From assembly GCA_013215525.1 (NCBI GenBank), contig JABSQY010000011.1:1-35590 (forward strand): a stretch of 35,590 bases of DNA, in the 5' to 3' direction. Below the pieces are notes generated by a model. That model worked only from the letters and a program-made list of their open reading frames with translations. It searched no databases and was not told where the DNA came from. A program made the position numbers and the translations under genes. The stretch is from Nanoarchaeales archaeon (GTDB lineage: Archaea; Nanobdellota; Nanobdellia; Woesearchaeales; UBA583). This document shows, in pieces, positions 895-35,338 of this stretch (its first letter is position 1; each line of letters opens with the position of its first letter).

Positions 895-2376
895 TTAAGC
901 CAGTTTACCAAATTCATTCTCCTTATGAATTTCTTCAAACTTTTCCCTAAGGAGTGGATTTTCCATTATTGAATTAATTAAACCATTATCTAGCCCTTTT
1001 GAAACATCTAGATTATTAAAAATTCCAGGACTCATTAAAATTTTCATAAATTTCAACTCATCTTCTTTTAGTTTATGTAATTTTTTTGCTTCATTTTCAT
1101 CTAATACAGCACCACAACCACAATATCTAACTTCTGGCGAATGTTCAAATAATTCTGGTCTCTCTGGAAATCTTTCTTCGCAAATAACACATATTCTTTT
1201 ATCCATTGCTGTATCTACTTTTTTTGTTTTATTAATATCAATACCGTGAAATTTTAAAATTTTATCACTTACTGCTTCTTCACCATAGTGAACATACCTT
1301 TTATACATATTAGAATTTTCACTCCATCCACTAAATATTCTTAAATCTCTTTCATTTAATCCTTGTGTTCTATATAGTGAATCTATTTTACTGTGTCTGA
1401 AAAAATGTAAATTTGTTTTCTTATTTAATTTAATTAATTTAGCAGAACGATTAATGATGTCTTGACAAGCAACATTAGAAAGCCTTCCAAATCTATTTTG
1501 ATAACACATAGATAAAAATAGAGGAGCATTTAATTCATCCTTATATTTATGTTCATTAATTAATTTCCTTATGTAAGGTAATGAATTAACTAATATAACT
1601 CTTCTTTCTCCAGTTTTTCCATCTAATTTAATAAATCCATATTTACCTAAATCTTCAATAGAACCAATGTTACAAGCAACTAATTCACCAATTCTTGCTC
1701 CACTTTCATATAATAATGAAATTATACATTTATTTCTAGCACCAACTGTTCCACCAATTAGATTTTTTATATCTTGAGGAGTTAATACTTCATTAGGTGC
1801 TATACTTTTAATATTATCAGAACTATTATTAATTTGTAGATTCGAAACTAATTTAGGGATTTTTCCCATTACAAAATTATCTTTGTTATATGACCAAATA
1901 TAAAACCTTTTAATAGTGATAAGGTATAAATCAATTGTTTTTTGAGAAATTTTAGGTGATTTATTTCTTTGTTTATGTGTTAATGGGTTTCTAGGAATTT
2001 CAATTCCAAAACTTTTTAATTTTTTTTCTCTTATTTCAATTCTTTGCTGTGTAGTTGTTTTTTTAAAATTAATTTTATAATTATCTATATCTTCTTTTGT
2101 AGCATCTATTAAATTTTTTTCAATATATTCTCCAAATTTAATTATATTATTTACATATCTAAGTATAGATTGTTTACTTCCAATTATTTTATAATCAAAT
2201 CTTCGACCATAATCATCAGTATATGTCTGTTTAGTTCTACTTTCCAAAAAATCAACATATAAATACATTTCTTTTTTATTATTTTCATTCAATAAGGGAT
2301 TTTTTTCAATTAAGTTTTCTATTCTCCTATTGTAAAATTCTTCTACTATATCTTTATACTCTTTGTGTTGCTTCAT
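895..2376 (-). CDS. Tyrosine recombinase/integrase with C-terminal zinc ribbon
   Basis: This is a full-length archaeal-type integrase of 493 residues. It has an N-terminal SAM-like core-binding region (about 35-165) and a catalytic domain with Arg228 (GARIGEL), Lys254 (DGKTGERR), H324xxR327 (LHFFRHS), Trp351 in place of the second His (FSGWSEN) and nucleophile Tyr361 (MYKRYVHY). A C-terminal zinc-ribbon-like module follows, with CVIC and CGC cysteine pairs (about 396-421) and then a helical tail. Such zinc-ribbon extensions occur on archaeal integrases. All catalytic residues are present, so it is likely active. The TATA-like TTATGATAAAG lies about 25 bases upstream of the ATG. It points to an integrated element at the left side of the window; the extent cannot be seen. 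Confidence 0.9.
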   Translation of the reverse strand: MKQHKEYKDIVEEFYNRRIENLIEKNPLLNENNKKEMYLYVDFLESRTKQTYTDDYGRRFDYKIIGSKQSILRYVNNIIKFGEYIEKNLIDATKEDIDNYKINFKKTTTQQRIEIREKKLKSFGIEIPRNPLTHKQRNKSPKISQKTIDLYLITIKRFYIWSYNKDNFVMGKIPKLVSNLQINNSSDNIKSIAPNEVLTPQDIKNLIGGTVGARNKCIISLLYESGARIGELVACNIGSIEDLGKYGFIKLDGKTGERRVILVNSLPYIRKLINEHKYKDELNAPLFLSMCYQNRFGRLSNVACQDIINRSAKLIKLNKKTNLHFFRHSKIDSLYRTQGLNERDLRIFSGWSENSNMYKRYVHYGEEAVSDKILKFHGIDINKTKKVDTAMDKRICVICEERFPERPELFEHSPEVRYCGCGAVLDENEAKKLHKLKEDELKFMKILMSPGIFNNLDVSKGLDNGLINSIMENPLLREKFEEIHKENEFGKLA

Positions 2377-7972: not shown

Positions 7973-8104
7973 ACTTTGAATGTGTGTTTGCGCTTTATAT
8001 ATATTAGTATCTATATTATTTTAAAAGTGTGAACTAAATACTTTTACTAACTTGTCAAAGAATTAACACATCAGATTTAAAAAGTGTCACAGCGATTTTT
8101 ATAT

Positions 8105-10048
8105 ATGGAAACTTTCTTCGAAAAAATAAACTTCCCTTATGAAACCGTTCGAGCTGGTCAAGATAAATTTATTAAATATGTTTTTTTAACAATTAAAGAA
8201 CAAAAAAATTTAATGGTATCTGCGCCAACTGGTCTAGGTAAGACTGTGTCCGCACTTGCGCCTGCAATCGCCTATGCTCAAAAACATGAAAAAACTATTA
8301 TTTGTCTAACCTCACGTCAGACTCAAGCAAACCAAGTGATTAAAACTATTGCTGATATTAACCGAAAAGCAAAGTCACGTGGTAAGACTCGTCCTATTAG
8401 ATATATGGCATTCATTGGAAAACGTAATATGTGTGCTCACAAAGATAGAGATTTATATCCTGCATCTGATTTTAATGAATTTTGTAAAAAAACTCGTGAG
8501 ACTGGTAAATGTAAATTTTTTATTAATACTAAAAATGAAGATAATGCTGAACAAATTAAAGAAGTTATTGATGAGTCTACGCGTTCAGTTATGAATGTTG
8601 AAGGATTTGTAAATCTTGCTGGAGGTTGTAAGTTGTGTCCGTATGAAGTTGCAGGTAAGAAAGCGTTTAAAGCTGATGTTGTGATTTGCGATTATAATTA
8701 TTTATTTTCTGCAGGGATTCGTGAGAACTTTCTTGGAAAGATTGGACGTACGATTGATGAGTGTATTGTAATTGTTGATGAAGCTCACAATCTTCCTGAC
8801 AGAATCCGTTCTGCTCACAGTTATGGATTAACTACAGAATTACTTAAAAATGCGTTAAAAGAGTTACAGGCGTGTATTAAAGATGATAGTTATGATATAT
8901 ATATTAATAATATTCGTGGTGTGCTTCGTGATATTATGCTTGATAAGTTAGATTCTTCTACTACTGATTATTTGGTTTCAAAAGATGAATTTATTAAAAA
9001 TTTAACTTCACGATTTTTGAATACAAATATGCAAGATATTATTGATAAACTTGATGCTGCTGCAGCTCTTGTTAAAGAGGATAGAATTATTTCATTTGTT
9101 GAACGTGTTTCTCATTTTCTTGGAAGATGGTTTAAGGCTGATGAAGATAGTTATTTACGTATTTTAGAAAAGACTGTTAATAAAGGTGAGACTACACTTA
9201 GTTTACGTATTAAATGTATTGACCCTAGTACTATTTCTGGAGATATTTTAAATAAATCTTATTCAACTATTTTAATGTCTGGAACGCTTACGCCAATTAA
9301 GATGTATCGAGATATTTTAGGTGTTGCGAATTGCCGTACTCTTGAAGTTGAATCACCATTTTTATCTAAGAATCAGTTAACTATTGTTGATGATACTGTG
9401 ACATCGCGGTACGCTGAACGATCGGATGAAATGTTTAGTAAAATTGCTAAAAATATTGAAGATGCTTTGTTTGTTGCAAAAGATAAGAATACCATTGTGT
9501 TTTTTCCTAGTTATGATTTTTTAGATAAAATTGTATCTAAAATTAATCTTGTTGGTTTAAATAGGAAGGTTTTACGTGAACAACGTTATATGAATAAAGA
9601 AGATAAAGAAAAGTTTGTTGATAGTTTTAAGTCAACTGGAGCGTTTGATGATAAGGCTAAAGTATTGTTTGGGATTACTTCTGGAAGTTTTGCGGAAGGA
9701 TTAGATTTACCTGCTAAAGCGCTTGAGATGGTGCTTGTTGTTGGATTGCCGCTTGCAGTTCCTGATACTTTTACAAAAGCTGTAATCAAACATTTTGATA
9801 AGAAATTTGGGAAAGGACAAATGTATGGTTATATTTATCCTGCAATGAGTAAGATTATTCAGGCTGCTGGGCGTTGTATTCGTTCAGAACAAGATAAAGG
9901 TGTTGTTGTATTAATGGATAATAGGTTTATGAGTCCGTTGTATGCGCAGTGTTTTCCGTGGCAGAAGAGTATGTATGTTACAAAGGATTTGATGGGAGAT
10001 ATTGAAGGGTTCTTTGATTCCAATGATAAGGATTCTTTAGATATTTAA
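8105..10048 (+). CDS. XPD/DinG-type Fe-S superfamily 2 DNA helicase
   Basis: An ATP-dependent 5'-3' DNA helicase of the Rad3/XPD type. Visible motifs: a Q-like RAGQDKFI, Walker A SAPTGLGKTVS (about residues 40-50 of the shorter form), Fe-S cysteines in KRNMC, FNEFC, GKCKF and GGCKLCPYE, DEAH box VDEAHNLPD, motif III-like LMSGTLTP, motif V GSFAEGLDLP and motif VI QAAGRCIRSEQDKG. The cysteine positions between motifs I and II match the 4Fe-4S domain. At about 647 residues it is close to archaeal XPD length. I prefer ATG 8105 (METFFEKINFPY) to the GTG at 8084 since the family starts just before this segment. Likely role: repair or replication-associated unwinding. Confidence 0.92.
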   Translation: METFFEKINFPYETVRAGQDKFIKYVFLTIKEQKNLMVSAPTGLGKTVSALAPAIAYAQKHEKTIICLTSRQTQANQVIKTIADINRKAKSRGKTRPIRYMAFIGKRNMCAHKDRDLYPASDFNEFCKKTRETGKCKFFINTKNEDNAEQIKEVIDESTRSVMNVEGFVNLAGGCKLCPYEVAGKKAFKADVVICDYNYLFSAGIRENFLGKIGRTIDECIVIVDEAHNLPDRIRSAHSYGLTTELLKNALKELQACIKDDSYDIYINNIRGVLRDIMLDKLDSSTTDYLVSKDEFIKNLTSRFLNTNMQDIIDKLDAAAALVKEDRIISFVERVSHFLGRWFKADEDSYLRILEKTVNKGETTLSLRIKCIDPSTISGDILNKSYSTILMSGTLTPIKMYRDILGVANCRTLEVESPFLSKNQLTIVDDTVTSRYAERSDEMFSKIAKNIEDALFVAKDKNTIVFFPSYDFLDKIVSKINLVGLNRKVLREQRYMNKEDKEKFVDSFKSTGAFDDKAKVLFGITSGSFAEGLDLPAKALEMVLVVGLPLAVPDTFTKAVIKHFDKKFGKGQMYGYIYPAMSKIIQAAGRCIRSEQDKGVVVLMDNRFMSPLYAQCFPWQKSMYVTKDLMGDIEGFFDSNDKDSLDI

Positions 10049-10088
10049 TTTTTTATCTTGCTTTCACGATTTTCCATATTTTATCAAT

Positions 10089-10285
10089 AGCACTAAAATT
10101 AAGACACTAACCAATATAGCGATGCTATAATTGGGTGTCTGAATTTCAGCACTCTTGAAAAAATCTGAAAAAGAATGTAGTCACTCTCAAGTTCGTTCGG
10201 GACACTGTAAACAAGATTTACAGAGTTTTGAATTGAAGCGAAAATTGGCTGTCACTTGTTTTTCTGATTTTACGTTTTTATTTTA
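10089..10285 (+). repeat. Dispersed structured repeat, copy 1
   Basis: Shares blocks with 18195-18345: AGCACTAAAATTAAGACAC, then a variable inner hairpin, TGTCT(G/T)AATTTCAGCACT, AAATCTGAAAA, and a tail AAGCGAAAA.TGGCTGTCAC.TG. The first hairpin is AAATTAAGACAC (10096-10107) with GTGTCTGAATTT (10135-10146) around CCAATATAGC-GAT-GCTATaATTGG. A 6-base AGCACT lies on each side. This copy has about 50 extra bases in the middle, including a 7-bp stem CTGTAAA/TTTACAG. The tail can fold CGAAAAT/ATTTTaCG. It lies between convergent genes. It may be a non-coding RNA or a non-autonomous mobile element. The 64-codon ORF over it is not credible. Confidence 0.8.
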
Positions 10286-10324
10286 TCCGAACGTAGTGAG
10301 ATTATTTTTTGTGAAGCGGACTTT

Positions 10325-10343
10325 AATTTCCAGAGTGGAAATT
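10325..10343. repeat. 8-bp hairpin with GAG loop
   Basis: AATTTCCA and TGGAAATT form a perfect 8-bp stem around GAG, 12 bases before the next stem-loop. Part of the unusually hairpin-rich 360-base gap between the helicase and the beta-helix protein gene. Confidence 0.55.
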
Positions 10344-10354
10344 TTATAATGTAT

Positions 10355-10386
10355 ATTTTACGAAGTAAAATTCTATTTTTTTATAT
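10355..10386 (+). terminator. Stem-loop followed by T-run
   Basis: ATTTTAC-GAA-GTAAAAT is a perfect 7-bp stem, followed on the plus strand by TCTATTTTTTTATATT. The T-run is the element that matters for archaeal termination. It would end transcripts of the helicase or of the structured repeat before the convergent gene. Confidence 0.4.
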
Positions 10387-10408
10387 TATTTATTATTTTT
10401 ATTATAAT

Positions 10409-11230
10409 TTAAATAAATAATAGTATACTTATTGATGCTATTATTATTGATGTTATTCCTAATCCAGGTAGGTTTGTTGTACTTGTTGTTGTACTTTGTG
10501 GAGTTATAGGTGTAGGTGTTTGTGTTGGGAATGTTATAATGTTTGCAAAGTTATCACAATTATTTACATCAAAGCAATGCGCGCCACTAAATGCTGTGTC
10601 GTTGTAGTATGTGTTTCCAATTCCTCCATAATCAAAGTTATTATTCCAGAATGGAAGACTATTATAAGTTATTTTGCTTATATTACCTAAATTATTATTA
10701 TATATTGTATTTGAAAATGGTCCTGCTGAACCTGCAGAAAAATATAAATTGTGTGTGTTGTTTGTAATATTATTTAATGTTATATTATTATTTAAACTTG
10801 ATGATAAACGAATCCCTATAAAATTATTAGTTAAATTATTTGATATAATATTATTACCATCTGAAGTTGTTACATCCATGGCATATACATTATCTGTTAT
10901 TTCATTATTTGATATATTATTAAAATCGGATGTTACCAACATTGCTTTTGAAAAATTAGAAACTACACAATTTTTGATTGTTGTAGAACTACTTGTTGTT
11001 GTAATTCCAAAACTTGTTCCAACTCCAATTATTGAATTTCCTTGACAGTCAAGTTCAACGTTTGCTCCATTTATACTTATGCAATGTCCACCTGCACTTG
11101 TAATTGGTCCAGTTAGTGTGTGTGTTCCTGTCGATAACACTGTACCGCAACTTGCAACCACAGCACTATATCCAACTGATAATGAAAAGAATATTATTAG
11201 AACAAATATAATTGAATATCTTTTAATCAT
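10409..11230 (-). CDS. Secreted NosD-like beta-helix protein with C-terminal membrane anchor
   Basis: The 273-residue protein starts with a clear signal peptide (MIKRYSIIFVLIIFFSLSVGYSAVVAS). A right-handed beta-helix follows with repeated N-N-x-I units such as NNISNNEITDNVYAM, NNIISNNLTNNFIGI and NNNITLNNITNNTHNL (NosD-like, PF05048/PF13229 type). The Cys pairs in CGTVLS, GGHCISI, ELDCQG and IKNCVV recur in the archaeal group. The C-terminus has a Pro/Thr/Ser linker (TQTPTPITPQSTTTSTT) and a final hydrophobic helix LGITSIIIASISILLFI, so the protein is probably displayed on the cell surface. Many N-x-S/T sites could be glycosylated. Ligand unknown; the beta-helix type binds polysaccharides in some relatives. 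TATA box ATTTATAAAT at 11251-11260. Confidence 0.82.
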   Translation of the reverse strand: MIKRYSIIFVLIIFFSLSVGYSAVVASCGTVLSTGTHTLTGPITSAGGHCISINGANVELDCQGNSIIGVGTSFGITTTSSSTTIKNCVVSNFSKAMLVTSDFNNISNNEITDNVYAMDVTTSDGNNIISNNLTNNFIGIRLSSSLNNNITLNNITNNTHNLYFSAGSAGPFSNTIYNNNLGNISKITYNSLPFWNNNFDYGGIGNTYYNDTAFSGAHCFDVNNCDNFANIITFPTQTPTPITPQSTTTSTTNLPGLGITSIIIASISILLFI

Positions 11231-11250
11231 AATTTTTTATTCTGGTTTAA

Positions 11251-11260
11251 ATTTATAAAT
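11251..11260 (-). promoter_or_regulatory. TATA box of the beta-helix protein gene
   Basis: ATTTATAAAT is centred 25 bases upstream of the ATG at 11230, which predicts a leaderless transcript. Confidence 0.6.
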
Positions 11261-11483
11261 TATTTTCATTATCTAATTGTAATGATTTTTAGTTTTTGCT
11301 TATTTCATTTATATACTAAATTTAAATTTAAATTCTTCCTTTTTAAATGATTTTTTACTTTTTTTAACTATTTTTCAGATACCTTTATAAAGAACCTTTT
11401 ACAAATATTTATTATTCATTTATAAACAAGTTCTTAAACGTGTGTTTTTGGCTTGTAGATAAAGAAAAATATTATATAAAAAA

Positions 11484-11759
11484 ATGGCCGATGTAATTGT
11501 AGCGTTTAGAGTAATGCCTGTTGATGGTGAAGTAGAGTATTCTGATTTAGAGAGTGCAGTTAAAAAAGTAGTTGAAGCATACGCAGAAGGTAAAGTTGAT
11601 ATTAGATCAATGGAATCTGAACCGGCAATGTTTGGAATGAGTAGTTGTATTTTTGAAATTCAATACGATGAAAACTTTGGTTGTGAAAATTTAGAAAACC
11701 AATTAGATGCATTAGAAGTTACTGGAACTGTTTCTGTAACTAAGATGGATAGAATGTAG
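11484..11759 (+). CDS. Translation elongation factor 1-beta
   Basis: Guanine-nucleotide exchange factor for EF-1 alpha in translation elongation. The 91 residues match archaeal aEF-1 beta in length and pattern: MADVIVAFRVMPVDGEVEYSD at the start, the central SMESEPAMFGMSSCIFEIQY with the invariant FGM-type loop, and the closing LENQLDALEVTGTVSVTKMDRM. A possible TATA element CATTTATAAAC lies about 55 bases upstream of the ATG, which leaves a leader of about 25-30 bases, unlike most genes in this window. It is followed by TBP in the same orientation after 133 bases. Confidence 0.93.
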   Translation: MADVIVAFRVMPVDGEVEYSDLESAVKKVVEAYAEGKVDIRSMESEPAMFGMSSCIFEIQYDENFGCENLENQLDALEVTGTVSVTKMDRM

Positions 11760-11789
11760 TTATTTTAATAAATAATTATATACTAAAAA

Positions 11790-11885
11790 ACAAATTAAAA
11801 AAAACAAATTAAAAAAAATGATACAGTCAAAAATTAAAAATTTTTTCGGTACAATTTTTTGATGTTTTTTTACAAATTAAAAAAA
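11790..11885 (+). repeat. Three copies of ACAAATTAAAAAA upstream of TBP
   Basis: ACAAATTAAAAAA occurs at 11790, 11804 and 11872 in the 133-base gap between EF-1 beta and TBP; the last copy ends at the TBP start region. TCAAAAATT and AATTTTTTGA between them can pair. The spacer has no good TATA box. It may carry regulatory sites or simply be A-rich. Confidence 0.5.
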
Positions 11886-11892
11886 TAAAAAA

Positions 11893-12507
11893 ATGGCATT
11901 AGCAAAAACAAAAATCGTGAATATTGTAATCTCTACTAGTTTAGATCACAAGATTCCTTTAGAAAGATTAATTATGGATTTACCTAATACAGAGTACAAT
12001 CCTGAACAGTTTCCTGGTTTAATCATGAAGATTCGTGAACCAAAGGCATCCTTTTTAATTTTCTCATCTGGGAAAGTTGTATGTACTGGAACTAAATCAT
12101 TAGATGAAGTTGAATTAGCTTTAGAAAAGTTAGTTGAGTATATGGCAAAAGTTGATATTACAATTACTATTAAACCTAAGGTTCGTGTAGAAAATGTTGT
12201 AGCATCATCTGATATCGATATGAAATTAGATTTAAATGAGTTAGCTATTAAGTTATCAAATGTTGAGTATGAACCTGAACAATTTCCAGGTTTAGTCTTT
12301 AAGATTCGTGATGAAACTAACGCTACATTTTTAATTTTCGGTAATGGAAAAATTGTTTGTACTGGAACTAAATCTGATAAAGATGTACATATTGCTATTA
12401 AGAATTTATTAGTGATTCTAAAGAGTGCAGGTATTAAGAATTATAAAACTAAAGAAGATTCTGAAATTGAAGAGAAAAAACTTCTAGAGAAGAAGAATAA
12501 GAAATAA
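11893..12507 (+). CDS. tbp: TATA-box-binding protein
   Basis: General transcription factor that binds TATA boxes and recruits TFB and RNA polymerase. Two direct repeats of the saddle fold are plain: repeat 1 has NTEYNPEQFPGLIMKIREPK and SFLIFSSGKVVCTGTKS, repeat 2 has NVEYEPEQFPGLVFKIRDE and TFLIFGNGKIVCTGTKS. Each ends in a helix (DEVELALEKL and DKDVHIAIKNL). Most archaeal TBPs are about 180-190 residues; this one has a charged lysine/glutamate tail of about 20 residues (EDSEIEEKKLLEKKNKK). Acidic tails are common in archaeal TBPs, while this one is mixed and ends basic. The ATG is preceded by an A-rich stretch without a clear TATA box. Confidence 0.97.
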   Translation: MALAKTKIVNIVISTSLDHKIPLERLIMDLPNTEYNPEQFPGLIMKIREPKASFLIFSSGKVVCTGTKSLDEVELALEKLVEYMAKVDITITIKPKVRVENVVASSDIDMKLDLNELAIKLSNVEYEPEQFPGLVFKIRDETNATFLIFGNGKIVCTGTKSDKDVHIAIKNLLVILKSAGIKNYKTKEDSEIEEKKLLEKKNKK

Positions 12508-12695
12508 TTAGATTAATGTTTGCAATGGTGTTATTTTTTAACATCTTTTTTTAAAATCTGATTATAAAAATTATTATTATTATTTATTTCTAAATTGACT
12601 TATTATTGTGTTGTGTGAGTTTTATTATGTTTCTACTTATTTTGTTCTATTTTCTAATGATAAAGTATTTAAAGTAATAAATTCATATGTTACTT

Positions 12696-13427
12696 ATGAA
12701 ATCAAGAATGGATAGTAGTTATTTAACTTTAAAAACACAAATTGGACCTGAATTAGCAATTACTGGTTTAGGATATACTGAATTTCCTTTATTGAGTTTT
12801 TTCCCACTCCCATCTAATTTAAGAGAACCTACTAGTTTACTTGGTAATGAAAAAATCAAAAATCAAATTATTAGATTTGTTTATTCATGTTTTGGTTTAA
12901 ATGCGAATAATTATGTTAATGGTGAAATTAGTTTAGATAAGTATACTTATGGAATAAAATCAATTCCGGAATTAATAGAAAAATATAACCCAGAAGGAGA
13001 ATATTCTAAAAAATTAATTAGTAAACTTAATTCTGGAACAATTAAGCTGGAGAATACTAAGTCTGTTAATGAAAAAATATCTCGTCTTAGGGAATTGGAA
13101 AAAACATTAAATTTATTTGATGGGAAAAATATACAAATTAATTCAATTAAACATAAAATTCGAGATTGTGGACATAGTGAATATTGTAGTTGTTGTGATA
13201 GTTATTTTGTGAAATTAACTGAAAAGGAAGTACTCCCATTAGTTGAATATGGATTAATGCCTGAATCTGAAATTAAAAATTCATTATCAGAAAATAAAAA
13301 TACTAGAGATAAAGTTATTCAATTAATTAAAAAAAATAAAAATAGTTCTGAATTTGTACGGGATGAAGCTAATTCTTTAAATGAATTTTTTATAATCTCT
13401 AATGAATTAACTAACTTATTTAATTAA
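12696..13427 (+). CDS. Unknown cytoplasmic protein with a Cys cluster
   Basis: No family recognised. I prefer ATG 12696 (MKSRMDSSYLT) to the upstream ATG 12687, since the box GTATTTAAAG is centred about 26 bases before it. The protein is about 243 residues and mostly helical and polar. A His/Cys cluster RDCGHSEYCSCCDSYF lies near residue 160 and may bind zinc. No signal peptide or membrane segment. There are several Ser/Asn-rich turns, such as ENKNTRDKVIQLIKKNK. It stands alone, with about 180 bases before it in which I see no further gene. Confidence 0.6.
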   Translation: MKSRMDSSYLTLKTQIGPELAITGLGYTEFPLLSFFPLPSNLREPTSLLGNEKIKNQIIRFVYSCFGLNANNYVNGEISLDKYTYGIKSIPELIEKYNPEGEYSKKLISKLNSGTIKLENTKSVNEKISRLRELEKTLNLFDGKNIQINSIKHKIRDCGHSEYCSCCDSYFVKLTEKEVLPLVEYGLMPESEIKNSLSENKNTRDKVIQLIKKNKNSSEFVRDEANSLNEFFIISNELTNLFN

Positions 13428-13479
13428 ATTAGTTAATTTAAGTACTTTTATAATATACTTATTTTGAATTAGTATATTT

Positions 13480-14532
13480 TTAATCTACACTATAACCTTC
13501 AGTGTATTGATTTACAAAAGAATCTGTTCTATTTTCTTCTAATGCTAAATATATATCTCTGAAATGATTAAGTTTAAATTCTAATATCTCTTGAAATACT
13601 GTTTTTGTTGAACCTTTAATTTTTGTTACTAAAGCTGGACACCCATAGTATGTAGTAGTATAATTATTAAAACCATGTTCCGAAAAATAATTTATAATTT
13701 CTTCAGTATTATTAGATAGTTCAGGATTTAAAGAAATTGTTTGTGTAGATTTATCATATATATTATTTACACCTATGATATCTTTATCTAATTTTAACTT
13801 ATGTTTATTTACATAACTCTCATATTCTTTCTCTCTAGCTGTCGAATGAACTGTGTGCTTACTTGCATCTTTTGCTAATTCTCGGATTGAATTTCTAATT
13901 ATTGTATCTAAATTATTTTTTGTTAAATTTGGTTGAGTTATTAAAGGATAAAATGTTCTTAATTCTGAATCTATAAACTGAGACATTAATGCAGGTTCTG
14001 CTTTATTTTTTCCAAATAGTCTATCCATCGAGTTTATTAATCTATAATTTAATTCAAGATCTGATAATTCTCCTATTGGTTTTGAACCTACATCTTCAAA
14101 TTGTTTATCCCAAGTATCGTATTGTTCTATTAATTCGTCTTCAAATGGTTCTTTTAGAAATAAGTATAAATCTTCTTTTTGTGTTGAACCTAAATTTGTA
14201 AGTTCTGTTACATTTGCTAACTTTGATATTAATTCTTGACGTTCTGAACTATTTTTTAAATTTTTTGATGTTTGTTCCCATAAATTTGTTAATAATTGAA
14301 TTGATGCGTTATGCATAAACATTCTATCTTTAGTTGTTGTTGAAGGTTTATTCTTTATTAAATTTTCTTTATGTGTTAATATTGAAAAACTTGATTCTTC
14401 TTTTTTTAATTTTTTTTCTAATAATTCTCTTGTTATATGTGTGTGTTTTTGTTTCTTAAAAGTTATATTTGATAGTTTTTTTAATAATTTAGAAAAAGGG
14501 CATTTATTTTGTGCTGGTTCAGGTACATTCAT
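13480..14532 (-). CDS. Unknown soluble helical protein
   Basis: A 350-residue protein with no recognised domain. The N-terminal 80 residues are strongly basic (KLLKKLSNITFKKQKHTH, ELLEKKLKKEESSF) and may bind nucleic acid or be disordered. The middle is acidic and helical (KEPFEDELIEQYDTWDKQF). The C-terminal part is mixed alpha/beta (YYGCPALVTKIKGSTKTVFQEILEFKL). A run KHTVHSTAREKEYESYVNKH could be a helix. No membrane segment. TATA box GTTTTATAAG lies about 25 bases upstream of the ATG, so the start is well supported and the gene is probably expressed. Confidence 0.6.
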   Translation of the reverse strand: MNVPEPAQNKCPFSKLLKKLSNITFKKQKHTHITRELLEKKLKKEESSFSILTHKENLIKNKPSTTTKDRMFMHNASIQLLTNLWEQTSKNLKNSSERQELISKLANVTELTNLGSTQKEDLYLFLKEPFEDELIEQYDTWDKQFEDVGSKPIGELSDLELNYRLINSMDRLFGKNKAEPALMSQFIDSELRTFYPLITQPNLTKNNLDTIIRNSIRELAKDASKHTVHSTAREKEYESYVNKHKLKLDKDIIGVNNIYDKSTQTISLNPELSNNTEEIINYFSEHGFNNYTTTYYGCPALVTKIKGSTKTVFQEILEFKLNHFRDIYLALEENRTDSFVNQYTEGYSVD

Positions 14533-14651
14533 AATTATTTTAAGTTTAATTTACTTATAAAACTATCTTATTGTTACAACTAGCAGTAAATAATATTGGG
14601 ATTGAATATCATTAGTTTTGATCGTAATATTTAATGTGTTTATCGTACGAA

Positions 14652-15194
14652 TTAAATTAAACTTTTAATTTCAATTACTTGATTTAATGGTTTATTTTCT
14701 ATATATGTTGATTTTAAAAATTGAGTATAAAAATCATTACCAAATTCTTTAGCACCTTCTAAACATATATCTAAATATTTTAGTTGAGCTTTACATTTAA
14801 AGTTAAATGTTCCATTATTCTTATTTGCACTAAATAAGTAACCACTTCCTATTATTTCATTTGATTCAAAATCATATATATTAGTTTCAATTAAGTTATA
14901 TTCTTTTTCCCTTAGTTTTAATTCTTCAAAGTGTGTGTTGTCCATTTGGAACATTACTCCATTTACAATAGAATCTTGTTTGGATATAGTTTGTACATCT
15001 AGCGCGCAATGTGGTACTCCCATTATTTCTTTTTCAACTTTTGTTTCTTTGAATCCAATTGGGTCCCAAAGGTTAAAGTTTCTTTCAAATCCTTTTATGT
15101 AACATGCTTTGATATGTGTTGCGTTACGTAATTTGCGTATCAATGAATTTGTGAATACTAAAGTTCCAAATCCAAATATGATTTTACTCTCCAT
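14652..15194 (-). CDS. Gamma-glutamylcyclotransferase-like (GGCT/AIG2 fold) protein
   Basis: The fold starts with a strand and loop FGFGTLVFTNSLIRKL, matching the (Y/F)G(S/T)L substrate loop of the GGCT superfamily. Near residue 90 is NGVMFQMDNTHFEELKLREKEYN, where family members have a strand, a helix and the catalytic Glu of the xxREGY motif; here Glu in REKEYNLI is the candidate. The C-terminus (about 50 residues, FGNDFYTQFLKSTY) is typical of the longer bacterial relatives. Members cyclise gamma-glutamyl residues of small amines or peptides; the substrate here is unknown. Cytoplasmic. Confidence 0.7.
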   Translation of the reverse strand: MESKIIFGFGTLVFTNSLIRKLRNATHIKACYIKGFERNFNLWDPIGFKETKVEKEIMGVPHCALDVQTISKQDSIVNGVMFQMDNTHFEELKLREKEYNLIETNIYDFESNEIIGSGYLFSANKNNGTFNFKCKAQLKYLDICLEGAKEFGNDFYTQFLKSTYIENKPLNQVIEIKSLI

Positions 15195-15251
15195 GTTCTA
15201 AATCTTCTAATTTTAGTTTAAGATTATATTTTTAATTATAGAGTAGTTAAC

Positions 15252-15260
15252 TTTATAAAT
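15252..15260 (+). promoter_or_regulatory. TATA box fixing the start at 15281
   Basis: TTTATAAAT is centred 25 bases upstream of ATG 15281, which supports a leaderless transcript and the shorter start. Confidence 0.6.
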
Positions 15261-15280
15261 GTGTGAATTATATATATATT

Positions 15281-15727
15281 ATGTCAAAAAATTATGTTAC
15301 TATTATGGCGATAAATGAACCATTGTGTCAAAATGAACCAGAATTTAAATTTTTAGATGAAAAAATTTTAGGTTTACAAAAAATTTTAAATGATTCAAAA
15401 TTAGAAAAAGATACGAGAACAAATGCAATATTTAGGCAAACTAGAAATTATTATATTCAATGTTCAACTAAAGTTATTATAGATTATAATGAAAATAAAT
15501 ATTCACTTTCAAAAATTCTTAAAAGAGAATATGAAAATGAAGATATTTCTATAATTGGTTCAATAAAAGGATTTACTCATATACTAGTCCATTTATTATA
15601 CAAGAATGGTACTTTATCAATTGATCGAGAAGTTGAGAAATATAATCTAGGAATAAAAATTCATAAAACTATTAGAAATGGTTATCGATTACGCTCAAGA
15701 GCTACTAAAGAAAAATCAATTAATTAA
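15281..15727 (+). CDS. Unknown small basic protein
   Basis: No family recognised. The start is the ATG at 15281 (MSKNYVTIMAINEP), not the GTG in the track, because the TATA box lies 25 bases upstream. The protein is about 148 residues, soluble and positively charged at the C-terminus (KIHKTIRNGYRLRSRATKEK). A two-strand pattern (NYVTIMAINEP, STKVIIDYNENKYSLSKIL) and a hydrophobic GFTHILVHLLYKNG region suggest an alpha/beta fold. Function unknown; RNA binding is possible from charge alone. Confidence 0.6.
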   Translation: MSKNYVTIMAINEPLCQNEPEFKFLDEKILGLQKILNDSKLEKDTRTNAIFRQTRNYYIQCSTKVIIDYNENKYSLSKILKREYENEDISIIGSIKGFTHILVHLLYKNGTLSIDREVEKYNLGIKIHKTIRNGYRLRSRATKEKSIN

Positions 15728-15882
15728 ATTTTTATTTTATGGGAATTTATCTTTTTATTGAGTAAGTTTTATCAAAAGTTTAATTTTGTTCAATATAAAT
15801 GAATATTTATAAATTATACTTGTTTTATTTTTATTATATATACAAATGTATCAATACATTTTAAAAAACATATTCAATAAAA

Positions 15883-16293
15883 ATGAACAATTTAAATTTA
15901 GAATTAGATAAGATTAGGAATTCTTTTGGAGATTATTGTATTAATACTTGCAAGTCTAAGTGTTGTAAGTTTGGAAAACTTTTATTATTAAATAAGAAAG
16001 AAGTGAATTTATTTTCTCAAGATAATTCTGATTTTATTGAAAAGAGTACAAATGATGTTAATCACCATTATTTTAATTTTGAGAAAAATGGAGATAAGTG
16101 TAAATTTTTAGATAAGGAGGGGATGTGTAAAGTTTACAAAAATCCAAGTAAACCAAAAGTTTGTAATGATTTTCCTATTTTTAAGACTGGAGATTTTGTA
16201 CTTACAGCAGGCAGTTGTCCTGCTATTACTACAGGATTAGTTGATGATAAGCTAAAAGAATTATGTGAAAAACATAATTTGAAATTGATTTAA
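15883..16293 (+). CDS. YkgJ-family cysteine-cluster protein
   Basis: The 136-residue protein carries the YkgJ (PF03692) cysteine pattern: YCINTCKSKCCKFGKLLLL near residues 18-36, DKCKFLDKEGMCKVYKNPSKPKVCNDFP (about 72-100) and a last Cys in AGSCPAI. The eight or so Cys residues probably bind a metal centre such as an Fe-S cluster or zinc; no reaction is established for the family as a whole. Cytoplasmic, with no signal peptide. A TATA-like ACATTTTAAAAAAC lies about 22-26 bases upstream. Confidence 0.85.
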   Translation: MNNLNLELDKIRNSFGDYCINTCKSKCCKFGKLLLLNKKEVNLFSQDNSDFIEKSTNDVNHHYFNFEKNGDKCKFLDKEGMCKVYKNPSKPKVCNDFPIFKTGDFVLTAGSCPAITTGLVDDKLKELCEKHNLKLI

Positions 16294-16358
16294 TAAATAC
16301 TCATATTAGTAATTGGATAGTAGTTAATTATATAAAGTTTAAATATTATATACTTTTT

Positions 16359-16796
16359 ATGATTGAAGAATATGGATTAGAAGGTGTAATTACTTTTTTA
16401 AATGGAGAGATTAAAAAAATAACAGGAGAAGGAACATTAAAAAACTCAAGGTTATTTCTTGCACATATTGACTTGATAGATTCAAATAATGAAAAATCTC
16501 AAGAGAATATAATGGGAGCTCTTGTTAATACAGAAGTATTTTGTTATGGAACAGGAACAAATGAGAATTATTTAATTTTAGCCCATGAAGATTCTAATTC
16601 AGAATTACATTTAAGTTATTTAAGTAAAGATGGGCCTGAACTTTTTGGTCAGTATAAAGGTTTTTTTGATTTAGATGTTCTACCTAAAACTTATCAATTA
16701 AAACTTGATAAATTACAATATAGAGGACAATTTGTAAAAAATATACATGAAGTTTCTAATGTTGTTCCTATGACACTTACTATTTCTAAAAAATAG
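16359..16796 (+). CDS. Unknown small beta-rich protein
   Basis: No family recognised. It is 145 residues, soluble and mainly beta by pattern (GVITFLNGEIKKITGEGTL, SRLFLAHIDLID, ENYLILAHED, ELHLSYLSKDGPELFGQYKG, VPMTLTISKK). It could be a lipocalin- or OB-like barrel, but nothing proves that. A TATA box TTATATAAAG lies about 26 bases upstream of the ATG. It ends 54 bases before the next gene, which has its own TATA box and is therefore probably transcribed separately. Confidence 0.6.
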   Translation: MIEEYGLEGVITFLNGEIKKITGEGTLKNSRLFLAHIDLIDSNNEKSQENIMGALVNTEVFCYGTGTNENYLILAHEDSNSELHLSYLSKDGPELFGQYKGFFDLDVLPKTYQLKLDKLQYRGQFVKNIHEVSNVVPMTLTISKK

Positions 16797-16820
16797 TTTA
16801 TATTATATTTTTTAGTTTGT

Positions 16821-16828
16821 TTTATAAA
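16821..16828 (+). promoter_or_regulatory. TATA box fixing the start at 16850
   Basis: TTTATAAA is centred 25 bases upstream of ATG 16850. The track start (TTG 16817) would overlap this box, so the shorter reading is better. Confidence 0.6.
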
Positions 16829-16849
16829 GCTGTGAATTCAGTATATGGT

Positions 16850-17338
16850 ATGTTAAATATAAATATAAATCAAAAAAATGATGTGACAAATTATAAATAT
16901 GATAATCCATCAGTGTATTCTAATGAAGGATTTTCTGTCTGTGTTCCTTCAAGTAAAATAAAATTTTCAATTAATATGTCAGTTCATTCTCAAAATATTC
17001 CTCATGCTCCAAATAATTATATTGTGGTTAAGAGACCTCCTTTTTTAAATAAAGAAGATAACAGTAATTATAATGGGGATATTGATGACCAAGTACTAGT
17101 TAGATTTAAAGTTCATAATGATGGTGGTCTTGAAAGAATGTTTGAAAGAACACACGATTCAAATGGAAAAAAAATTATTGGAAAACAACTTCAAGGTCTA
17201 TGTGTTGAACTTCCTTTAGATAAAAATATGAACACGCTTAATGATATTTCAAATAATAATAAAGTTAGAGCTCCTCTTAAAGGTGTTATTGGTGGAACTG
17301 GAACTCCAATTAATTTACATTATAGACATTTAAATTAA
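16850..17338 (+). CDS. Unknown soluble protein
   Basis: No family recognised. The start at ATG 16850 (MLNININQKNDV) is chosen from the TATA box 25 bases upstream. It is about 162 residues, rich in Asn, Asp and Lys, with short strands (FSVCVPSSKIKFSINMSVH, NYIVVKRPP, QVLVRFKVHNDGG, GLCVELPLDKNM) and turns rather than long helices. The final region has Gly-rich turns (LKGVIGGTGTPINLHYRH). No Cys clusters and no signal peptide. It lies next to the 145-residue beta-rich protein, which also has its own TATA box, so the two are probably not one operon. Confidence 0.55.
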   Translation: MLNININQKNDVTNYKYDNPSVYSNEGFSVCVPSSKIKFSINMSVHSQNIPHAPNNYIVVKRPPFLNKEDNSNYNGDIDDQVLVRFKVHNDGGLERMFERTHDSNGKKIIGKQLQGLCVELPLDKNMNTLNDISNNNKVRAPLKGVIGGTGTPINLHYRHLN

Positions 17339-17360
17339 TTGTTTTTATTTTATTTTTATC

Positions 17361-18101
17361 TTATTTTATTTTCATATTCCACAAAAGTTCAAACTTTTGT
17401 CTATGAAAATCCGCATTTTCTTTTCCTCTCACAAGTACTACACTTGGTTCTTCATCGAGCCACAGTACAGTTGCAACGTTGTTTCCGTAAATATTTTGAG
17501 ATACTACACCATTATTAAAGTTTTCAATTAGTTTTATTTTTGTATGTTTTAATATTTTTAGTTTTGATATTACTTCTTTTGGTGTATTTTTATCAAATAT
17601 CATTCTTGTTTTTACTTTGTTATCATCACGTGTTTTTTTATATTTTGGAAAGAAAAATTTTATGATTGAGTCTGGGTCTTTTGATGTTGCTTCTATTAAT
17701 ACTTCTCCTTCAAAATTAATCATTTCTAGAAATAATTGTTTAATACCTGATTTTCCTCTGTAAAATAGTGTTTCTTTTTTGTCTTGCCATAATTTCATAT
17801 TTTCTTCAATTTGAGGAATAATTTGTTCCCAGTCAGATTGCTTTTGTTTTAGTTGTTCTAGGATTTTTGTTGGATTTTGTATTTGAAAGTATTTTAAGTT
17901 GTTTTCTTTGATGTATGCTAAGAATCCTTTGTTTACTAGTCTGTCGATTGCATCGTATACATTTCTTCTGTGGCTTCCGATTCTTCTTGCAATTTCTCCT
18001 GCTGGCGTTGGTCCTCTGACTACTAATAATTCGTATATTTTCGTTTCTAGTGTAGTTAGGTTTAAGTCTTCTAGTAGTTGTGTCAGTAAGTTTTGATTCA
18101 T
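17361..18101 (-). CDS. TrmB-family transcriptional regulator
   Basis: A winged helix (residues about 1-70: LTTLETKIYELLVVRGPTPAGEIARRIGSHRRNVYDAIDRLVNKGFL) followed by a helical linker and the PLD-like effector domain (FYRGKSGIKQLFLEMIN, EVLIEATSKDP, TRMIFDKNTP, VVLVRGKENADFHRQKFELLWN). This is the TrmB layout, used in archaea to sense sugars or other metabolites and to repress or activate promoters. I start it at ATG 18101 (MNQNLLTQLL); the track start adds a low-complexity Lys/Asn stretch. A structured repeat element lies directly upstream and the gene is divergent from the 219-residue protein. The regulated genes are unknown. Confidence 0.85.
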   Translation of the reverse strand: MNQNLLTQLLEDLNLTTLETKIYELLVVRGPTPAGEIARRIGSHRRNVYDAIDRLVNKGFLAYIKENNLKYFQIQNPTKILEQLKQKQSDWEQIIPQIEENMKLWQDKKETLFYRGKSGIKQLFLEMINFEGEVLIEATSKDPDSIIKFFFPKYKKTRDDNKVKTRMIFDKNTPKEVISKLKILKHTKIKLIENFNNGVVSQNIYGNNVATVLWLDEEPSVVLVRGKENADFHRQKFELLWNMKIK

Positions 18102-18194
18102 TTTTTTGTTTTTTCTATTTTTTTCTTTGTTTTTCTGATTCTTTTTTTTATTCTTTTCTGTCTCGCTGTGCGGAGTTCTCACATTGTGCCACTA

Positions 18195-18345
18195 GCACTA
18201 AAATTAAGACACCATTCGATATAGCTACACTATTAATCGAGTGTCTTAATTTCAGCACTATTGACAAAATCTGAAAACGAAGTTTCAAAATTAAGCGAAA
18301 AGTGGCTGTCACGTGTGTGTCTGCTTTTTCGTTTTAATTCTTTAC
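18195..18345 (+). repeat. Dispersed structured repeat, copy 2
   Basis: The second copy of the element at 10089. The main hairpin is AAATTAAGACAC paired with GTGTCTTAATTT, a perfect 12-bp stem, around TCGATATAG-ctaca-CTATtaATCGA. Compared with copy 1, the outer stem differs by one base, and the inner stem keeps pairing with other bases (TCGAT/ATCGA here, CCAAT/ATTGG there). AGCACT flanks both sides. The tail AAGCGAAAAGTGGCTGTCACGTG folds CGAAAA/TTTTCG and is followed by a T-rich run. It lies between two divergent genes. There is no coding potential. Confidence 0.8.
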
Positions 18346-34601: not shown

Positions 34602-35338
34602 TTGTATATAAATAACTTATGATAATGTTCCTTAATATTTCTTCTTAAAATGTTATTATGTCTACATTTCCCACTATAATTTTTAGGTGGAAATAATAAA
34701 TAATTATTTTTTAATTTCATTAATTTAAATAATCCATAATCAAAGTATCCTTTGTCAGCAACAATTACAACATTTTTAAACTTAAATCGTTTAAAAAGTT
34801 TCCAAGTAACATAAATATCATGTCTTTGTTTCATCAAAAATGAAAAATCATAAATTTTCATTTTTCCATTCATATCAGCTATAATGTCCAATTTATGATA
34901 ATTAGATTTTGGTTTTCTACCAAATTCTTTTAATCGTTTTTCATAATATCTAGATTTAAAATGAGTATCAATGCCAGTTCCATCAATTCCCAATAGTTCA
35001 GGTTTTTCACCTGAATTTGTTTTATCTAAAACTTCTTTTAAAAAATCTAAATCAAATGATTTAACCCAATCATTTGATTTAGATTTTTTAATTTCATATT
35101 TTAGTTCTAACCAATTTGACCATTTAGTTTCTTTAAATTCTCTACAAAATGCAATTAATGATTTATGAGAATGAAAGTAAAGAATTACAACACTCAATCT
35201 TTGATCGGTTGTAAATTGTTTATTACCCATTTTATTAGGATATTTTGGAAGATTTAAACTTAAAATAATTTTATTTAATTCTTGACGAAATGAATTTTTA
35301 TGAGGAACTAATTGTTTTTGAACTAATTTGCGAATCAT
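34559..35338 (-). pseudogene. DDE transposase, 3'-truncated
   Basis: A transposase of the IS4/IS5-like DDE type. An N-terminal helical domain (QFTTDQRLSVVILYFHSHKSLIAF) is followed by the first catalytic Asp in LLGIDGTGIDTHFKSRYY, YHKLDIIADMNGKMKIYDFSF, the second Asp in VVIVADKGYFDYGLFKLM and FPPKNYSGKCRHNNILRR. The part beyond KEHYHK should contain the third acidic residue in an E-x-F-x-x-x-K block, but the ORF instead runs into antisense of the metallophosphoesterase (TLIKSNTAISF) and stops. So the element has lost its 3' end around 34605 and should be inactive. One terminal repeat survives at 35371-35385. Confidence 0.8.

Follow-up and report, generated by a model that had tools for sequence, protein, structure and literature searches.

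A family of strand-specific, probably mobile hairpin elements dispersed through one archaeal genome

The two structured repeats found in the stretch of DNA analysed here (the window, 35,590 nucleotides) belong to a family, labeled E, which together with a sister family, F, amounts to ~65 copies scattered through one archaeal genome. We consider it probable (about 0.6) that E and F form a dispersed, non-coding and non-autonomous mobile hairpin family, multiplied in this species and behaving in the manner of REPINs and MITEs, which would make it a new family within a known class of element. Short hairpin repeats of this dispersed type have been described well in bacteria but poorly in archaea, and here at least two related strand-specific families and two smaller, nested ones share a single genome. 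Their numbers (~65 copies, plus at least 92 of the nested element N1) are enough for structural selection to be measured directly, and the same genome separates strand-specific hairpin elements (E, F) from strand-symmetric ones (N1).

Copies in the window

Both copies lie where the first-pass annotation had placed them, and every motif it quoted was recovered: AGCACT on either side in both copies, the outer stem ATTAAGACAC/GTGTCTNAAT, the inner stems CCAAT..ATTGG plus ATAGC..GCTAT in one and TCGAT..ATCGA plus ATAG..CTAT in the other, and the further motifs AAATCTGAAAA and GGCTGTCAC in both. The proposed extents fall short, since each element starts ~40 bases further left, at ~10047 and ~18152, and this extension adds one more small hairpin to each copy. 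The difference noted between the middle spacers is real, with the extra length of copy 1 being mainly a separate 49-nt two-hairpin insertion (N2, 10176-10224). The gene contexts, convergent for copy 1 and divergent for copy 2, are also as described. Copy 1 lies at the 3' end of a gene for an XPD/Rad3-type helicase (8084-10048, plus strand), after its stop codon, and faces an opposite-strand gene, and copy 2 is flanked by a TrmB-type regulator gene and an opposite-strand ORF. A TATA-binding protein is also encoded in the window, which marks the DNA as archaeal. The features are as follows.

10047-10280, minus strand: copy 1 of family E, interrupted by N2 (covariance model R2 match, 10057-10201, minus, 119 bits, and aligned copies)
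10057-10070, minus strand: small 3' hairpin of copy 1, with an AAA/GAAA loop between short arms (aligned copies)
10070-10172, minus strand: long hairpin (P2) of copy 1, 38-nt arms at 10070-10107 and 10135-10172 (covariance model alignment)
10176-10224, no strand given: N2 mini-element inside copy 1, two short hairpins, ~49 nt, missing here in other E copies
10238-10255, minus strand: small 5' hairpin region of copy 1, GTGACAGCCAATTTTCGC
18152-18336, minus strand: copy 2 of family E, uninterrupted (R2 match, 18162-18312, minus, 143 bits)
18162-18175, minus strand: small 3' hairpin of copy 2, CUCCGCACAGCGAG
18175-18278, minus strand: long hairpin (P2) of copy 2, 38-nt arms at 18175-18212 and 18241-18278 (minus-strand fold)
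18295-18312, minus strand: small 5' hairpin region of copy 2, GUGACAGCCACUUUUCGC (covariance model alignment)

Copy number and distribution

The element had been described as two-copy, and the genome holds ~43 copies of E and ~22 of F. With copy 2 as query, blastn against its own genome (G000; 1,746,147 bases in 172 contigs, 88.6% complete) returned 45 hits, part of which are antisense echoes of the palindrome, with E-values for other copies reaching 1e-44. Iterated nhmmer and covariance model R2, built from 22 copies, led to the ~43 sense-strand copies of E and the ~22 copies of F, the counts for both families being the tally after removal of the antisense echoes. For the copies in the window the model returns E-values of 2e-27 and 2e-22, copy 2 being part of its training set; like the blastn values, these lie far beyond chance. 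E copies measure ~185 nt and differ among themselves by 20-30%, so most of them are not recent. F (~150 nt) has the central hairpin in common with E and different flanks, which in copies L103-L122 come in swappable variants, like exchangeable modules (ATGTTCGAA, AACAATCC and GAAAGAAAAAAAC on the 5' side; ATGTTCGAAAGC, AATCCCAAAGC and ACTTCGAAAGC on the 3' side).

E has no match in 98 relatives and F a single copy among them, in the congener G005; the spread over DPANN genomes envisaged earlier was not seen. Exact-pattern scans of GTDB genomes and IMG/VR viral contigs gave no match, and phages and plasmids searched by blastn with one F copy gave none either.

Strand and fold

The first-pass annotation read the structure on the plus strand; the selected fold is that of the minus strand, on which the element is one ~45-bp hairpin. 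The consensus energy is -35.9 kcal/mol on the minus strand versus -7.7 kcal/mol on the plus strand, and the plus-strand structure was rejected for this weak consensus. Single E copies fold at -49.7 kcal/mol (mean z -6.0) on the minus strand versus -37.1 (z -2.1) on the plus strand, the minus fold being more stable in 21 of 22; for F the values are -47.2 versus -31.8, with the minus strand better in 22 of 22. The non-Watson-Crick pairs of the minus strand point the same way, G.U outnumbering A.C by 121 to 2 in E and by 85 to 3 in F. In a plain DNA palindrome the two would be equally common, as is the case in N1, which shows 3 of each and pairs without strand bias.

The AGCACT motifs, taken before as a flanking pair, are actually inside the helix. 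On the minus strand the motif reads AGUGCU and pairs with its other copy (A-U, G-C, U.G, G.U, C-G, U-A), the self-complementary AGUGCU/AGUGCU with its tandem U.G/G.U being contained in the P2 stem of copy 2; this self-pairing makes it part of the helix and not a flanking repeat. The first wobble (U.G) alternates with U-A in 9 of the 22 E copies, and the second, G.U, is found in all 22. The element is strand-specific, and RNA and single-stranded DNA are inseparable here as the selected molecule, because G.T wobbles are the better-tolerated mismatch in DNA too.

Selection on the structure

In alignment A4, under the minus-strand structure, 96.5% of the helix cells are paired, against 76.9% in shuffles and ~45% when slid. 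Two-sided changes occur at 25 of the 39 pairs, and none of 500 shuffles scored as high on any measure. On the copy tree, a mapping that is R-scape-like but is not R-scape places 42 compensatory events over the 39 pairs. Of these events, 22 are on terminal branches, which include any evolution in unsampled master copies. With permuted partners the means were 2.1 (all branches) and 1.2 (terminal), and the maxima 10 and 5. Selection acts on the minus-strand structure. With ~2 events expected for the 42 seen, the earlier proposal that an RNA or single-stranded DNA fold is selected and its changes compensate each other is supported; a lack of further copies and covariation at background level would have spoken against that proposal, and the ~65 copies and the excess of events did not refute it.

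Two-sided changes may also be produced in a single event by quasi-palindrome repair, whose template switching would keep the arms complementary and mimic compensation with no selection at all. Such repair would erase wobble pairs and favour neither strand, whereas most or all E copies retain G.U pairs at fixed positions, which recur in F, and the minus strand combines a strong G.U excess with a near absence of A.C; we regard this explanation as highly improbable.

A multicopy structured ncRNA with a cellular function, for which minus-strand transcripts would carry a protein-bound or processed hairpin and the spread would be incidental, also has to be weighed here. Strand-specific tolerance of G.U and an invariant G.U pair are what selection on RNA is expected to leave, and the compensatory events on terminal branches could also mean that single copies are kept for function. 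The genomic context of the copies goes against it, as detailed below.

Relation to genes and transcription

Both neighbours are present for 35 copies and, taken in the plus orientation, are arranged as (-,-) in 11, (+,-) in 11, (-,+) in 8 and (+,+) in 5. Copies in all gene orientations imply no leader-like position, confirming that the element is not the leader of one gene, and a role as gene leader or terminator was ruled out by this spread. Across the copies we found no fixed TATA position of a promoter and no T-run terminator, which makes an independent RNA gene less likely. The element is free-standing, as had been suggested, but a dedicated RNA gene is not supported, given these two absences and the random orientation.

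The same features argue against a functional ncRNA, and so do its restriction to one species (apart from the F copy of the congener) and the interruption of copies by N1 and N2 at several sites. In the window nothing reached the Rfam gathering cut-off, and at six loci a relaxed search returned just microRNA-precursor matches far below the cut-off and an unrelated tRNA gene. On balance, the ncRNA reading is unlikely, and a mobile hairpin family remains the preferred one.

Evidence of mobility

The F copy of G005 is 98.2% identical over a 114-nt core to copy L114 of G000. The serS gene beside it has 82% nucleotide identity to its G000 orthologue, a value close to that of the core genes of the two genomes (~82%), and in G000 no F is found within 139 bases downstream of serS. 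In G005, the orthologue of the helicase that neighbours copy 1 (82% at the nucleotide level) aligns almost to the stop codon, and no E follows downstream. Taken together, the 98.2% identity and the serS and helicase comparisons amount to presence/absence differences and a likely recent transfer, and the family is recently mobile, at least in F. With ~65 dispersed copies in any orientation, these differences from congeners favour the small non-autonomous mobile element that the first-pass annotation had put forward as an option.

No target-site duplication was detectable for E or F, whose exact ends are uncertain, as they are not set by a same-species empty site. With this uncertainty of the ends, the longest shared flank was 7.43 within the same copy versus 7.38 between different copies in E, and 7.53 versus 7.55 in F.

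Nested mini-elements

Two smaller hairpin families, N1 and N2, show nesting with E and F. Besides the insertion in copy 1, N2-like units are found in E copy L017, at a different site, and within F copies L112 and L113; reading of the sequence adds L105. N1 has the arrangement TCAAG-hairpin-CTAAGCC-hairpin-AAAG in 45-60 nt, with at least 92 copies in G000, 28 in G005 and 10 in G002. Some N1 form head-to-tail arrays with no bases between units (G000:C107:1854-2081 and C129:13254-13406; G005:C1:90467-90568), and some arrays stop right before a TATA-like sequence and start codon.

About 10 N1 sit within E or F copies. The loop of the long hairpin is occupied in five copies of E and one of F; the other sites are the base of the small 3' hairpin, the vicinity of the E 5' end and the F 5' flank. 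The expectation is ~0.6 genome-wide, and ~5 if N1 is confined to intergenic sequence (assuming 12% intergenic), for which ~10 is a mild excess. The base 3' of N1 is T in 38 of 44 cases. In loci L055 and L058 (G000:C102:15668 and C20:2192) N1 lies within an (ACAAAC)n array whose phase is kept on both sides, showing precise insertion without target duplication. Another two-hairpin insertion of different sequence, N3, occurs at L013:8202-8253, inside an E copy, with no second copy in the loci searched.

Mobilising enzyme and proposed mechanism

Concerning the enzyme, no Y1 transposase (RAYT) was found in any of six congeneric genomes (G000 and five congeners), in a search whose positive controls matched, and neither the TnpB C-terminal domain nor a reverse transcriptase was found in G000 (88.6% complete). 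Y1, TnpB and reverse transcriptase were thus set aside as drivers; a retron or an RT-driven SINE-like element has no reverse transcriptase available in this genome at that completeness. The assembly has no recognisable Y1 transposase to serve as mobiliser, and the findings point to a mobilising enzyme missed by the families searched.

The window encodes a DDE transposase (PF01609; 34559-35338, minus strand), and the inverted repeats near its gene have, on reading, no likeness to E. That gene contains an inverted repeat (35038-35091), perfect over 24 bp and closed by a 6-nt loop. A 493-aa tyrosine recombinase (895-2376, minus strand) is XerA-like, scores far below the curated cut-off and has a long C-terminal part without assigned function.

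The presence of this recombinase in the window, the imperfect and strand-specific hairpin, and four same-direction E copies within ~5 kb of contig C119 would suit attC-like sites, folded from a single strand, at which an integron-like system or another one based on a tyrosine recombinase recombines. We consider this reading very unlikely: the arms GTTTTC..GGAAAC run opposite to the attC order RYYYAAC..GTTRRRY, the score of the recombinase is far below both the XerA and the integron-integrase cut-offs, and the copies mostly stand alone, in either orientation. With boxes judged by reading and IntI on the window recombinase, E and F do not qualify as integron attC sites.

For the preferred mobile hairpin family, the anatomy fits a non-autonomous element recognised as a folded single strand of fixed polarity. 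The long hairpin would be the feature recognised while single-stranded, either as single-stranded DNA or as transcript, by an enzyme presumably supplied in trans which copies or moves the element and may tolerate any sequence that preserves the helix and the U.G/G.U site, a mode of working that would resemble that of REPINs or IS200/IS605-derived MITEs. A more speculative proposal, which we see as quite unlikely, is that E and F are self-spreading structured RNAs, whose minus-strand transcripts, bearing the long hairpin and a U.G/G.U recognition site, would be copied into new intergenic sites by an undescribed RNA- or folded-single-strand-dependent enzyme that lacks RT or Y1 homology, with nested elements preferring the loops.

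Comparison with known systems

REPINs are replicating hairpin units with compensatory changes, mobilised by the trans-acting RAYT (Y1) transposase (PMC3116915). E and F resemble them as multicopy, intergenic and non-autonomous hairpin units that carry compensatory changes, but they are larger, have asymmetric flanking hairpins and show no conserved REP-type termini, and no Y1/RAYT gene was detected in their species or genus. By this comparison REPINs are the closest working model, but membership fails on the enzyme. IS200/IS605-derived miniature elements are like N1 in its two hairpins, lack of target duplication and preferred 3' T; no Y1 transposase was found, and the likeness is one seen for N1.

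Prokaryotic MITEs are AT-rich, intergenic, 100-200 nt long, form a stable stem-loop and are mobilised in trans (PMC10969869). E and F share these traits, trans mobilisation being the presumed one, and are likewise short, non-coding and multicopy. They differ in that no target-site duplication was found and no parent IS turned up in the families searched (Y1, TnpB and reverse transcriptase), and in a strand-specific pairing, with wobbles, instead of plain terminal inverted repeats.

The pneumococcal BOX, RUP and SPRITE repeats (PMC3049150) are also interspersed, with predicted RNA folds and variable internal modules; compared by description, they are bacterial and have another module order. In BOX the internal module gained or lost is its own, whereas E and F receive the independent families N1 and N2.
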